Below, one piece after another: positions 5,060 to 10,462 of a stretch of 64,000 nucleotides of DNA; the first letter of the stretch is position 1; every line of letters begins with the position of its first letter. Origin of the DNA: Fereydounia khargensis (Eukaryota; Basidiomycota; Ustilaginomycetes; Urocystidales; Fereydouniaceae); assembly GCA_026413255.1 (NCBI GenBank), contig JAOCZO010000008.1, positions 422,084 to 486,083 on the forward strand. The letters are read 5' to 3'. The notes under the pieces were generated by a model. The model worked only from the letters and a program-made list of their open reading frames with translations. It did not search any database and had not been told where the DNA came from. The translations under genes were made by a program, and so were the position numbers.

Positions 5060-6172
5060 CTAGAGGCCATAGGCGACCAGAGAGTCACGCACGCTCTCAA
5101 ATACGATAAACATGACAGCATTGACAGGCAGGGCGCGGAGGACAGTGGGTCCGACGCCTGCAAAGAAGGCCGCGATGCCGCCCTCGGCGTAGGTGGACGC
5201 AGCTGTGCGGAGGAAGAGGGACCTGTGCCAGAAGGGAGAGCCCGGGGCGCGTCTGTCGTCCAAGTGGGAGGTGGCCTGTACGCGTGTCTTGACGACGTCG
5301 GCCCAGAAAGTCGAGAGCCATGCGAGGACGCCTGCGATGCCACCAGAGACGGCGAGTTGGGCGTTGCTCAGAGGACGCGCGCGGGCGGGGGCGGGGGCGT
5401 CTGGGTCGAGGCCGATGCGAGAGACCAAGCGGTTCAGCAGCTCGTAGCTCCAAAAGTAGGGGCCATACCCCAGGTCGCGGATCGCAGTGGCTCCCCAGCC
5501 GCGGAAGAGGCCGCGGAAAAGACCCTCGTTGGCGAGAATAGACAGGAGGAGGCGGTAGGTGGAGGTGCGGGGGTGGGAGACGTCCATCTGCTGTCGGATC
5601 TTGACGAGATCGATGGGCGCAGTGATGAGGGACGAGCCTAGGCCGGACAGCATGCCAGCAACCATGATCTGGGAGAGGGTGGGTGATGGGTCGCCGAGGA
5701 TGTTGTGGTGCTGCTGGTAGCGGAGGGCCAAGCCGTAGAGGCCAAAGATGGAGGCATTCATGATGGCGACGCCGAGGAGCGGGGAGGTGACACCCTTGTA
5801 GAGGCCAATGAAGCGCTCCTGGCGCACAATGACATGGAACGCATGCGTGGCGTTGCGGTAGATGGGTGTGCTGGCATGGGTGAGGGCGCGCGACGAGACT
5901 GGCTTGATGGTGTGGGCGTGGGCGAGGGCGTGTTTGGGGAGCAGGGGACGGGTGTCAGCCAGTCTACTGGACGAGGCAGAGGCAGAGGCAGAGGGAGAGG
6001 GAGAGGGAGAGGGAGAGGGAGAGGGAGAGGAGGGACTGTGGGAGTGAGACTGGGCCTGAAGGCGTGTCTTGATCGTGTCAAAGGGGTGGCCGGCAAGGAG
6101 ACTGGCGACGCCCGCAGCTGTGCCGGCGATAAAGTCGACGAGCGCCGAGGGCGGCGGGGGCTCGGAGGCCAT
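5060..6172 (-). CDS. mitochondrial carrier family (SLC25) protein
   Basis: One exon encodes 370 residues; the start at 6172 puts the first repeat directly at the N-terminus. Mitochondrial carriers exchange small metabolites across the inner membrane. Three repeats are visible: HPFDTIKTR (residues 29-37), APIDLVKIR, and a third where the family PxDxxK becomes WADVVK. The C-terminus shows the conserved LPVNAVMFIVFE helix. The first repeat resembles the carnitine/ornithine (CRC1/ORT1) branch, but the substrate cannot be assigned. Oddities are a Ser-Pro/Ser-Ala insertion of microsatellite origin after the first signature (residues about 42-70) and the Trp for Pro change in repeat 3. An in-frame frame extends upstream to 6616 but looks like 5' UTR. 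Confidence 0.85.
   Translation of the reverse strand: MASEPPPPSALVDFIAGTAAGVASLLAGHPFDTIKTRLQAQSHSHSPSSPSPSPSPSPSPSASASASSSRLADTRPLLPKHALAHAHTIKPVSSRALTHASTPIYRNATHAFHVIVRQERFIGLYKGVTSPLLGVAIMNASIFGLYGLALRYQQHHNILGDPSPTLSQIMVAGMLSGLGSSLITAPIDLVKIRQQMDVSHPRTSTYRLLLSILANEGLFRGLFRGWGATAIRDLGYGPYFWSYELLNRLVSRIGLDPDAPAPARARPLSNAQLAVSGGIAGVLAWLSTFWADVVKTRVQATSHLDDRRAPGSPFWHRSLFLRTAASTYAEGGIAAFFAGVGPTVLRALPVNAVMFIVFESVRDSLVAYGL
5975..6030 (-). repeat. (GAGAGG)n/(GAGGCA)n coding microsatellite
   Basis: Hexamer repeats inside the mitochondrial carrier gene encode alternating Ser-Pro and Ser-Ala. Length change here would keep the frame, so this is a likely polymorphic loop. Confidence 0.9.
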
Positions 6173-6683
6173 ATTAGGGGTAGGTGAGGATGCGTCTATG
6201 GCGCGTGTGCTGTACGGGCTGACTCTTTTTCTATGGTATGGTATGGTATGGTGTGGCAGGGTTGCGAAGGAAGCAAGCGCTTGGCTGTGCTTGGCTATGC
6301 TGGGTTGGGATGGGGTGGGATTCAGGGTCCGCCTTGTCCTGTCCTGTCGTGTTCCCGTCGTGACCTGTCGTGTCGTATCGGCCGGGTGGGGCTCCTCTCC
6401 ACCACGTCCCGACGTCCCGACGTCCCCACGTCCCCACGTGCCCACACGCCCACGCCCAGGCCCACGCCCACGCCCACGCCAACGCCAACGCCAACGCCAA
6501 CGCTCTTTTCCTCCACTCGAAGCGTGAGCGTGCACGAGCCACAGGACTGGGCAGCGCAGCCAAAGGCGACTCAAAAAAGCACTTTTGGTCTGCTTCGGTT
6601 CACATCCGCACCGCACTCTCGAGTTGGGCTCAGTCTTTTCCTTTCCTTCCCTTTACACCACCACCACCACCACCACCACCCAC
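6173..6683. promoter_or_regulatory. shared divergent promoter region (carrier / peroxiredoxin-SDR fusion)
   Basis: 511 bp separate two head-to-head start codons. The stretch contains TATGG repeats (6235-6252), GT/CC-rich blocks, a (CCCACG)/(CCAACG) array at 6443-6503 and a (CCA)n tract at 6656-6682 running up to the ATG of the plus-strand gene. No specific factor site is identified. Confidence 0.5.
6443..6503. repeat. (CCCACG)n-(CCAACG)n array
   Basis: Imperfect hexamers GCCCAC followed by four GCCAAC units lie in the divergent promoter region. Confidence 0.85.
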
Positions 6684-8434
6684 ATGACAGACACAGCTAC
6701 GACTGACGACGCCCTCCCCGCAGCCGCCGAGCTCGCGCATGCCGACACCCTCACCCTGCGTGACCAGTCGGGCGGCACCACCCTCTTTTCTTCCCTCCGC
6801 CACCCACCCCAAGGCCAGGGCCAGGGCCAGCCCAAGGCCGTCCTCCTCGTCCTCACACGCCACTTTCACTGCGGCATGTGCATGGAGTACGTACGCGCAC
6901 TCGCACAGTCACACCTCCTCACCCAAAACCCAAACATCACCACCATCATCGTCGGTCCAGGACTGCACCAAGCCCTCCCCCGCTACATCCAGCAGACCGG
7001 CAACCCCCCCTTCCAGTTCTATGCAGACCCAGACCTCGCCCTCTACAAGGCACTCCGTGTCACCCGACGAAGCCTAGACATGGGCGACCCCGCAAAGGGC
7101 CACGTCCCCTCACACCACACCAAGACCTCCTCCACCGTCCTCAAGAGCGTCGTCGAAACCATCTCCTCAGGCTCACTCATCTCAAAGGGCGGCGACTTTA
7201 AACAGCTCGGCGCAGAATTTCTATTCGACACACACGGCAACCCCGTATTTGCGCACCGCATGCGACACACACGCGATCATAGCGAAGTACTGGCTATTGA
7301 ACACGCTATCCAAAAGGCCTGTCTTCTTCCTCCTCCTCCTCCTGCTGCTGCTGCTGCTGCTGCTTCTACCTCTTTTGCTCCCCGTGACACCCTCCCTGCC
7401 ACAGCAACCAGCACCAGCACCAGCACCAGCACATCACCCGCTCCAGCTCTGCCCCCCACCACCACATCTGCCCCCGGAGTGGCTGGCTCAAACCTGCTTC
7501 CAGGCAAGGTCGTAGCCATCACCGGAGCCTCGCGCGGAATCGGACGCGCCATCGCGCTCGCCTGTGCCGCCCACGGCGCACGCGGCATCCTAGTCCACTA
7601 CCTCGGCGACGCCGCGACTACCTCCGAAGCTCAGTCGCTGCAGGACGAGCTGGCTGCTCTCGGCGCCACCTCACACCTTGTGCCGGGCGACATTTCCGAC
7701 GCTGCCGTGGGACAGAGCATCTCCGACGCCGCACAGACGCACTATGGACGCCTGGACGTGTTTGTGTCCAACGCAGGCATCTGCCCCTTCCAGGGCTTCC
7801 TCGACATGCCACACCAGACGTGGAAACGCACCCAGGACGTCAACCTCAACGGCGCCTTTTATGCCATCCAGGCCGCCGCCAGACTCATGAGCTCCCAGCC
7901 CAACCCGGGCGGAAGCATCGTGGCCGTCAGCTCCATCTCGGCCCTCGTCGGCGGCGCGATGCAGAGGTAAGCCGAGCCCCCCCCCTCTCCCTGAACCAAG
8001 AATACGCACTGACTCACTTGTCCCTCACACAGCCACTATACCCCCACAAAGGCAGGCATCAAGTCTATGATGGAGAGCGCGGCCATCAGCCTAGGCCCAC
8101 TTGGCATCCGCTGCAACTGCGTCCTCCCGGGTACCATCGAGACCGCCATCAACCAGGACGACCTGGCCGACGTCCAGAAACGCGAGTACATGGTCTCGCG
8201 CTCGCCTCTCCGCCGTCTCGGTAAGCCCGAGTAAGTCTGCCCCGCCCCGCTTCGCCTGGATTCTTGCCACCGTTCTGTCGTGCATTCCCGTGCTGACTGA
8301 CACACTTTCCTGTGCTGTGCTGTGCTGTTAGTGACATTGCGGGCCCAGTCGTGTTCCTTGCGTCCGACCTGGCCAAGTACATGACGGGCTCTTCGGTGCT
8401 TGTGGACGGCGGTTGTTTCGTCAATCTGCAGTGA
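6684..8434 (+). CDS. fusion: peroxiredoxin-like (AhpC/TSA_2) domain + L-rhamnose-1-dehydrogenase-type SDR
   Basis: Three exons (6684-7966, 8033-8230, 8332-8434) give 527 residues. Residues about 20-220 match the AhpC/TSA_2 peroxiredoxin-like family: a thioredoxin-like strand before HFHCGMCMEY (Cys63, Cys66), then YADPDLALYKAL and KGGDFKQLGAEFLF, ending RMRHTRDHSE. A low-complexity Pro/Ala/Ser/Thr linker (about 222-268) leads into a complete short-chain dehydrogenase: TGASRGIG at 280-287, NAG, catalytic Ser417, Tyr430 and Lys434. NAGICPFQGFLDMP and LVDGGCFVNLQ at the C-terminus are typical of fungal and bacterial NAD(P)-dependent L-rhamnose-1-dehydrogenases. There is no in-frame stop and no Met between the domains, so the SDR has no start of its own. 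Substrate and redox role are inferred. Only 18 bp separate its stop from that of the convergent esterase. Confidence 0.85.
7329..7437 (+). repeat. (CCT)n-(CTG)n and (ACCAGC)n coding repeats in the fusion linker
   Basis: Trinucleotide runs at 7329-7363 encode poly-Pro then poly-Ala, and an ACCAGC array at about 7404-7432 encodes Thr-Ser repeats. Together they form the linker between the two enzyme domains. Confidence 0.85.
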
Positions 8435-8452
8435 CGCAAGGCAATGTAATGT

Positions 8453-10462
8453 TTAAGTGTGCCGACCCCATCCATTCCAGGTGGGCAGGGCGTCGTGGTA
8501 TCCGTAGTACATGAGCAGGTTGCGTGTGACGCCGGCGTCGTTTATGGGGTGTGTCCAGAATGCGAGGCGGGTTTCGTAGCTCGCGGGGACGGGGGAGGTG
8601 CGGGCGTGCGCGTGCTCGGCGAGCGGGGCTGTGTGGACCTTGATCTCCGTGTCGCCGCGGTCGGGGACGGGGTCGGGTGCGGCCACGCCGAGCTGGGGGG
8701 CGTCGCCAAAGGCGAGGAGGGGGATCGCGGCGTCCAAGCGTGTCCATGTGCCCGGGCGGTCGTGTGCGACAGCTGCCCAGGCCCGCATCACACGCGCACT
8801 GAGCCCCCGCTCCGCCGGCGTCATCGTCCCCCCCTCCAGCGACGGCGGCTCCCCGTCCCACGTGTGCCCGAGCCCCGCGTCAAACCCAAACACATAGAAC
8901 ACGTCCGCCGTGTGGAATACGCCCAGATCGTCCCCCAGGCCCGGCAGGAAACTCACCCCCTCCATGTGCGTCCCAGACGGCCGGTGCGCAAACACATACC
9001 CGTACACCGGCACTCCAGAACCATCACCCGGGGCCGGGGCCGGGCCTGCGTTGGCGCGCAGCACATCCGTAATCGGACCGTGGAACATCGAGTCGCCGCT
9101 GTACGTGGCACAGGCAACGAATGCCTCCCGCTCGCGCACCCCGTGCGTGCCGTAGGTGCGTGCCACATCCGTAGCGATGCGGTCCGTAAAGTTGGACAGG
9201 TGCGCAGCGAGCGCAGACGGCGTGCGTACAAGCATGTTAAACATGCTCCCCTCGTCCACGACGTAGCCGACCACGATGCCGCGCGCCCCGTTCCGCAGGT
9301 CGCAGGCACGGAAGGGGGCCTTGTTGCGTGCGAAAAAGTCGCGCGGGACCATGACGCCGTCCCACACGGGGCCCCACTTGTCCTGCACGGGGAGGCTGTG
9401 CGTGCCCGGGCGCAAGTCCTCGCGCCGCTGTGGGCGGAGTCGTTTGTCGCTGGCATCGGCAATGTACTCGGAGCGCGGGCGGGTGCCGAGACAGGCTTGC
9501 ATGGCGGCGTGGATGGCGTCGGCTGATACGCGCGTCTGGAGATAGTGGAGCTGCGCGGCCGGGTCGGTGATGGAGGACGGGACGAGCGTGTGGACGAGGT
9601 AGTCGTACGTGGCCTGTGAGGCAGCCGTGGTCTTGGGAGGAATGGTGAGCGCGACGCCAGATTGGAGGATGGCCTTGTGGAACAGGTCAGAGGGGACAGA
9701 GGGCGAAAGAAGGAGGTAGTGAATGGCCACCGAGCCAGCCGACTCGCCAAAGACAGTCACGTTGTTGCTGTCACCGCCAAAGACGGAGATCGAGTGCTGC
9801 ACCCAAAGCAGGCCAGCGACGAGATCCCAGAGGGCCCAGTTTCCCGATGTGTTGGCTGATGCTGCAGAGGACTGCTGTTCAGGAGAGGGAGGGGATGCGA
9901 ATGCCTCGAATGCCTCGCGTGAGATGAGCGGATAGTCGCCCAACGCTTGTAAAGCCATCTGGCGACTGCCGAGGAAGCCGAGTGCGCCTACCCGGTAGGG
10001 CAAGGAGACGATGATGGCATTGGCCTCGAGAGCAAGCCGCGCGCCGTCGTACATGGGGCGTGATGTGTTTCCGACGGCAAAAGCGCCGCCATAGATCCAG
10101 ACCATGACAGGCAATGGGTGGCTTGATGCGGATGTAGATTGGGGCACCCAGACGTTGAGGTAGAAACAGTCCTCGTCGCGTTTGATGCGGCGCTTGTGGT
10201 CGCGGCGGGAGTAGTAAAAGCCCTGCATGGCATCAAAGGGTTGGTGTGGGTCGTTTCCCCACTGGCTGGTGCGCAGGTCGGACCATGATGGCAGCGGACC
10301 CTGGGGCACCTTCCAGCGGTTGGTGAGTGTGGGCGGCTGGGCAAAGGGGACGCCGAGGTAGGCGAGTACGGTTCCCGGCGACGACGAGGGCGTAAAAGCT
10401 GGCAGGTCGATGCGCTTTGGCTGCAGGCGACCCTGGGAGGGAAGGCTGACAATGCCCGCCAT
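8453..10462 (-). CDS. type-B carboxylesterase/lipase
   Basis: A single exon of 669 residues from the ATG at 10462. Type-B carboxylesterases are alpha/beta hydrolases acting on carboxylic esters. Visible features are the N-terminal YLGVPFAQPPTLTNRWKVP block, EDCFYLNVWVP, the oxyanion-hole WIYGGAFAVGN, the nucleophile elbow GESAGS (Ser241), an acidic DEGSMF segment and the C-terminal FHTADVFYVFG supplying the catalytic His. No signal peptide follows this start, which suggests an intracellular enzyme. The substrate is unknown. Its frame stays open upstream to 10906 and contains a hydrophobic stretch, but that part overlaps the ARP1 start region and looks non-coding. Confidence 0.85.
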   Translation of the reverse strand: MAGIVSLPSQGRLQPKRIDLPAFTPSSSPGTVLAYLGVPFAQPPTLTNRWKVPQGPLPSWSDLRTSQWGNDPHQPFDAMQGFYYSRRDHKRRIKRDEDCFYLNVWVPQSTSASSHPLPVMVWIYGGAFAVGNTSRPMYDGARLALEANAIIVSLPYRVGALGFLGSRQMALQALGDYPLISREAFEAFASPPSPEQQSSAASANTSGNWALWDLVAGLLWVQHSISVFGGDSNNVTVFGESAGSVAIHYLLLSPSVPSDLFHKAILQSGVALTIPPKTTAASQATYDYLVHTLVPSSITDPAAQLHYLQTRVSADAIHAAMQACLGTRPRSEYIADASDKRLRPQRREDLRPGTHSLPVQDKWGPVWDGVMVPRDFFARNKAPFRACDLRNGARGIVVGYVVDEGSMFNMLVRTPSALAAHLSNFTDRIATDVARTYGTHGVREREAFVACATYSGDSMFHGPITDVLRANAGPAPAPGDGSGVPVYGYVFAHRPSGTHMEGVSFLPGLGDDLGVFHTADVFYVFGFDAGLGHTWDGEPPSLEGGTMTPAERGLSARVMRAWAAVAHDRPGTWTRLDAAIPLLAFGDAPQLGVAAPDPVPDRGDTEIKVHTAPLAEHAHARTSPVPASYETRLAFWTHPINDAGVTRNLLMYYGYHDALPTWNGWGRHT

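Follow-up and report, generated by a model that had tools for sequence, protein, structure and literature searches.

A three-exon gene on the forward strand of Fereydounia khargensis contig JAOCZO010000008.1 is predicted to encode, once spliced, a protein of 527 residues in which a thioredoxin-like redox domain is joined through a low-complexity linker to an SDR domain (Table 1; positions are those of the window, that is, the whole stretch of 64,000 nucleotides that was analysed). The limits of the gene proposed in the earlier note, an ATG at 6684 and a TGA at 8432–8434, are correct, and the residue numbers given there for the CxxC motif (63/66), Ser417, Tyr430 and Lys434 agree with the spliced protein, in which the cofactor motif TGASRGIG starts at residue 280. 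The coding sequence had also been described as one continuous frame; this description is accurate for the first exon, which is open throughout, but the catalytic residues Tyr430 and Lys434 and the C-terminus are reached in frame only once two introns are spliced out.

Table 1. Features of the fusion gene and its product (window coordinates).
Feature	Position	Strand	Evidence
AhpC/TSA_2 (PF13911), SelL-related-type thioredoxin-like domain	6684–7325	+	Residues 1–214; PF13911 and NF040769 matches, Cys63/Cys66 motif
Linker, 53 residues, Pro/Ala/Ser/Thr-rich	7326–7484	+	Translation; tandem repeats; without ATG or frame-0 stop
SDR domain, exon 1 part (Rossmann motif TGASRGIG, Ser417)	7485–7966	+	Pfam matches and motifs
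Exon 1	6684–7966	+	Open frame
Intron 1, 66 bp, GTAAGC...CACACAG	7967–8032	+	GT..AG ends; CTGAC branch-point-like motif
Exon 2, SDR domain with Tyr430 and Lys434	8033–8230	+	Translation; motifs
Intron 2, 101 bp, GTAAGT...CTGTTAG	8231–8331	+	GT..AG ends; CTGAC branch-point-like motif
Exon 3, SDR C-terminus FVNLQ and stop	8332–8434	+	Translation; VNLQ end common to four LRA1-type sequences

The neighbours of the fusion gene encode a mitochondrial carrier, a carboxylesterase and an actin-family protein, and there is no sugar cluster around it. The carboxylesterase gene, on the minus strand, converges with the fusion gene and leaves 18 bases between the two stop codons (8432–8455), so the 3′ untranslated regions probably overlap. 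Upstream, about 0.5 kb (6173–6683) separates the fusion gene from the likely start (6172) of the divergently transcribed mitochondrial carrier gene, and this interval contains several short tandem repeats (CCACGTCC, CACGCC and CAC units). The frame of the carrier (5063–6652, minus strand) has an internal Ser/Pro/Ala low-complexity insert of its own; repeat-encoded inserts are thus not peculiar to the linker of the fusion.

The N-terminal part of the protein matches PF13911 over residues 81–195 with 53.8 bits (3.1e-14), above the Pfam gathering score of 27, and the model for SelL-related redox proteins (NF040769) over residues 47–206 with 66.8 bits, below the curated cut-off of 120. The Cys63-x-x-Cys66 motif lies upstream of the PF13911 match and within that to NF040769. 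The domain therefore resembles AhpC-TSA_2 proteins in its PF13911 score and in its CxxC redox site, and differs from these and from the SelL-related proteins in being joined to an SDR and in missing the NF040769 cut-off; it is presumably related to the mammalian PRXL2/AAED1 proteins. No PDB chain was similar in sequence to this part up to an E-value of 10, and a single-sequence structure model, which addressed the question of a thioredoxin fold, had a mean pLDDT of 36.1, too low for use. When the genome (10,464,240 bases in 40 contigs) was searched with the PF13911 profile, the single match was the fusion gene itself. The string "PF13911" was absent from the literature searched by that word; "pfam13911" appears in a table of PMC9312934.

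The C-terminal half is covered by PF13561 (residues 281–521, 206.8 bits, 4.6e-61) and PF00106 (residues 275–471, 151.1 bits), and the cofactor motif and the Ser417-Tyr430-Lys434 triad are intact, as befits an SDR fold. The proposal that this half is nearest to L-rhamnose 1-dehydrogenases is borne out by the best NCBIfam model, by structural relatives and by sequence identity. Among NCBIfam models, L-rhamnose 1-dehydrogenase Lra1 (NF053807) fits best, although the score of 367.5 bits is below the equivalog cut-off of 400, which the SDR of Mesorhizobium L018, included as a control, exceeds with 434 bits. The best solved relative is a chain of the 7b81/7do5-7 group (E 8.1e-93; 59.2% identity to 7b81), structures that we take to be L-rhamnose 1-dehydrogenase. 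Identity is 54.7% to the Mesorhizobium L018 SDR and 55.3% and 49.4% to two further bacterial SDRs, L022 and L024; the controls, a FabG and two genomic SDRs, are 39.7%, 30.8% and 33.9% identical. The fusion keeps 98 of the 121 residues that are invariant in 7b81, L018, L022 and L024, and 27 of the 36 that may be called LRA1-specific (invariant in these four and absent from FabG and the two genomic SDRs), in a reference set that is small, with four sequences of which one was checked against NF053807. Structures of the A. vinelandii L-rhamnose 1-dehydrogenase are mentioned in a passage of PMC9795676.

Like LRA1 enzymes (NF053807; 7b81), then, the fusion SDR has the Rossmann motif, the triad, 27 of the 36 group-specific residues and a VNLQ C-terminus at 59% identity; it differs from them in a 267-residue N-terminal extension that carries the redox domain, in its sub-cut-off NF053807 score and in the pathway partners, which were not found in its genome (see below). 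From its sequence it is best described as LRA1-like, akin to an aldose 1-dehydrogenase of the LRA1 group, with the substrate left open. The genome gave 17 matches to the SDR, three of which belong to the fusion gene; the two that follow in E-value have 32% and 35% identity, while short fragments of further matches reach 38% across 118 query residues and 49% across 41. Neither half turned up as a separate gene when the genome was searched with the PF13911 profile and with the SDR.

Matches to PF13911 and PF13561 in one spliced frame uphold the earlier view that domains of two separate families share a gene. Frame 0 contains no stop codon from 6684 to 7966, and the linker indeed lacks Met: the interval 7250–7820 has just three ATGs, two in frame (7260, which is Met193, and 7806) and one out of frame (7744), and none occurs in any frame from 7261 to 7743, so an SDR made alone would need to start at Met193 or in an unseen exon. 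Openness of the linker was rejected as proof of fusion and counts as weak evidence, because simulated 168-base stretches stayed open in 17% (window composition), 35% (upstream intergenic composition) and 63% (linker composition) of cases; what carries the case is consequently the lack of a start and of an exit, together with the frame that both halves share. The GC3 of the two halves (0.72 and 0.80) is similar to that of the neighbours (carrier 0.79, esterase 0.79, actin-family 0.75), and that of the linker is 0.43, unlike both halves. Short tandem repeats (TCC, CTG and CAGCAC units at 7328–7343, 7342–7364 and 7402–7447) make up much of the coding sequence of the linker and may explain its deviant GC3.

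The same features bear on the opposite reading, in which there are two genes or products, the SDR is made also or only from the internal Met193 or from an unseen transcript, and the fusion is an artefact of reading. The in-frame ATG at 7260 falls near where the first domain ends, the linker has many repeats and a deviant composition, and one splice exit to a stop exists on paper: when all GT..AG introns of 40–200 bases with donors in 7150–7479 were enumerated, a single one reached a stop before 7490 (donor at 7152, intron of 131 bases, stop at 7298). That exit, however, has GTCGAA as its donor, a poor one, and would take away some of the PF13911 match, the first domain has no stop in its own frame, and two genes would have to fit a terminator and a promoter into the 159 bases of the linker. 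With no ATG available from 7261 to 7743 either, separate products appear improbable, and on sequence the reading of the locus as a fusion holds, as a well-formed two-domain gene.

The substrate of the SDR half was approached through relatives in other genomes and through partner enzymes in the same genome. The scan of genome contigs, which reaches close relatives only, gave one locus, Mesorhizobium L018, from 32 pattern matches. Here, the SDR gene has as its same-strand neighbour a gene for L-rhamnonate dehydratase (447.3 bits; cut-off 393), and an HpaI/GarL-type aldolase gene (338.2 bits, short of its 368.8 cut-off) is found at a greater distance on the opposite strand. Among 150 genomes of the order to which this Mesorhizobium belongs, three have a match at E ≤ 1e-55, including the starting genome, which has no PF13911 match. 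No relative of either half was found in the viral contigs that were scanned.

Partners in the F. khargensis genome were sought exon by exon over one assembly, which is possibly incomplete, so that a gene split into small exons could be missed; the search used Pfam families that we took to stand for fungal LRA2/LRA4. PF13378 gave two matches genome-wide, one of L-fuconate-dehydratase/ENOSF1 type and the other weak and read as an enolase from its sequence, and L-rhamnonate dehydratase was not found. PF03328 (HpcH aldolase) and PF17389 (Bac_rhamnosid6H, rhamnosidase) had no match in the genome, and the single match to the Amidohydro_2 lactonase family (PF04909) is sub-threshold, its frame encoding an Amidohydro_1 protein that is presumably dihydroorotase-like. 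The canonical rhamnose pathway was accordingly rejected as the setting of the fusion, since these four exon-by-exon searches gave no L-rhamnonate dehydratase, HpcH aldolase or rhamnosidase and no Amidohydro_2 lactonase above threshold. Other contigs carry an SGL lactonase-type protein, a DHDPS-family protein and FAA hydrolases. The L-fuconate-dehydratase/ENOSF1-type gene also lies on another contig than the fusion (L010, 1471–2718, minus strand), and its protein has six PDB matches at E ≤ 1e-50, namely 4ip4, 4a35 and four chains of L-fuconate dehydratase; it occurs in a genome in which neither an Amidohydro_2 lactonase over the cut-off nor an HpcH aldolase was found.

These results weigh directly on the idea that the protein is the L-rhamnose 1-dehydrogenase of rhamnose catabolism. 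The choice of Lra1 as the best NCBIfam model (367.5 bits) speaks for it, as does the L018 SDR gene beside an L-rhamnonate dehydratase gene, with an aldolase more distant and on the other strand. The score nevertheless falls short of the cut-off of 400 that the Mesorhizobium protein passes, PF13378 detects only the L-fuconate-dehydratase/ENOSF1 type and the presumed enolase, and the aldolase and rhamnosidase families are without a match, with the sole PF04909 match below threshold. The place in the non-phosphorylative rhamnose pathway that the earlier note suggested was therefore not sustained; as the rhamnose partners were not found in the exon-by-exon search, the label "rhamnose catabolism" is unsupported, and we regard this reading as unlikely. 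L-rhamnose serving as a carbon source is probably not what the SDR oxidises.

A somewhat better, if still tentative, alternative treats the SDR half as an orphan paralogue of LRA1 type that acts on another substrate, like A. niger NRRL3_8837 or A. nidulans AN7580, and the redox domain as a support for that reaction. Section 3.1 of PMC12028159, one part of that source, describes an Aspergillus group of LraA paralogues with no function assigned, which lies between LraA and the bacterial LRAs; expression of NRRL3_8837 is described there as not rhamnose-specific. The fusion resembles the NRRL3_8837/AN7580 group in having an SDR of LRA1 type for which no role in rhamnose use is evident, a likeness drawn from the description in that part of the source, and the rhamnose partners that were not found fit the same picture. 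This reading overlaps the one that we prefer and differs from it in leaving the substrate wholly open.

The most concrete alternative substrate suggested by the gene content would be an L-fucose-type or related sugar that feeds an L-fuconate-dehydratase-type enzyme; counting against this idea, the proposed sugar-acid partner genes sit on other contigs. A portion of PMC10481521 describes L-fuconate dehydratase in several fungal groups in which no L-fucose dehydrogenase homologue was found, and Ustilagomycotina are absent from the list of holders in that portion; the genome studied here therefore either falls outside that group or departs from the list. A more far-reaching version would be a long shot: here the fusion would act as an aldose dehydrogenase, bifunctional or gated by redox state, and provide the absent initial reaction (sugar to sugar lactone) of a fungal oxidative pathway of L-fucose type that ends in the L-fuconate-dehydratase-type enzyme, and its CxxC domain would sense or repair oxidised thiols of the dehydrogenase.

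The reading that we prefer, with a probability of roughly 0.6, is that a single gene gives rise to a 527-residue protein in which an aldose 1-dehydrogenase is tethered to a thiol-disulfide domain. The SDR would form the usual SDR oligomer and oxidise a deoxyaldose or aldose at C1 to the lactone with NAD(P)+, and the CxxC domain would act as a separate thiol-disulfide reductase/peroxidase-like module that is re-reduced by thioredoxin or glutathione. The linker would hold both domains together, giving them common expression and location, with no direct electron transfer between them. To our knowledge, SDRs as a family have no flavin or redox dithiol able to reduce a disulfide, and for this reason the CxxC domain would carry out thiol-disulfide chemistry of its own. 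The gain might lie in co-location or in protection of the dehydrogenase, the cysteines of which (294, 367, 455, 457 and 522; two of them, Cys367 and Cys455, count as LRA1-specific) could be targets.

Both parts belong to known families, and what appears unusual, judged from the genome, is their combination without the usual rhamnose-pathway partners being found. Among the matches listed for literature on peroxiredoxin/SDR domain fusion in basidiomycetes, none concerned this fusion by its title or the start of its abstract, and "rhamnose dehydrogenase" was absent among the matches listed for rhamnose dehydrogenase/Malassezia/Ustilago/peroxiredoxin literature. A fixed fusion hints that two proteins work together; in this case, the link would be between sugar oxidation and a redox domain of PF13911 type. 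The fusion bears on what LraA-like paralogues do apart from rhamnose catabolism, as raised in the section of PMC12028159 cited above, and on the missing L-fucose dehydrogenase of those fungi that have L-fuconate dehydratase, as outlined in the same portion of PMC10481521.
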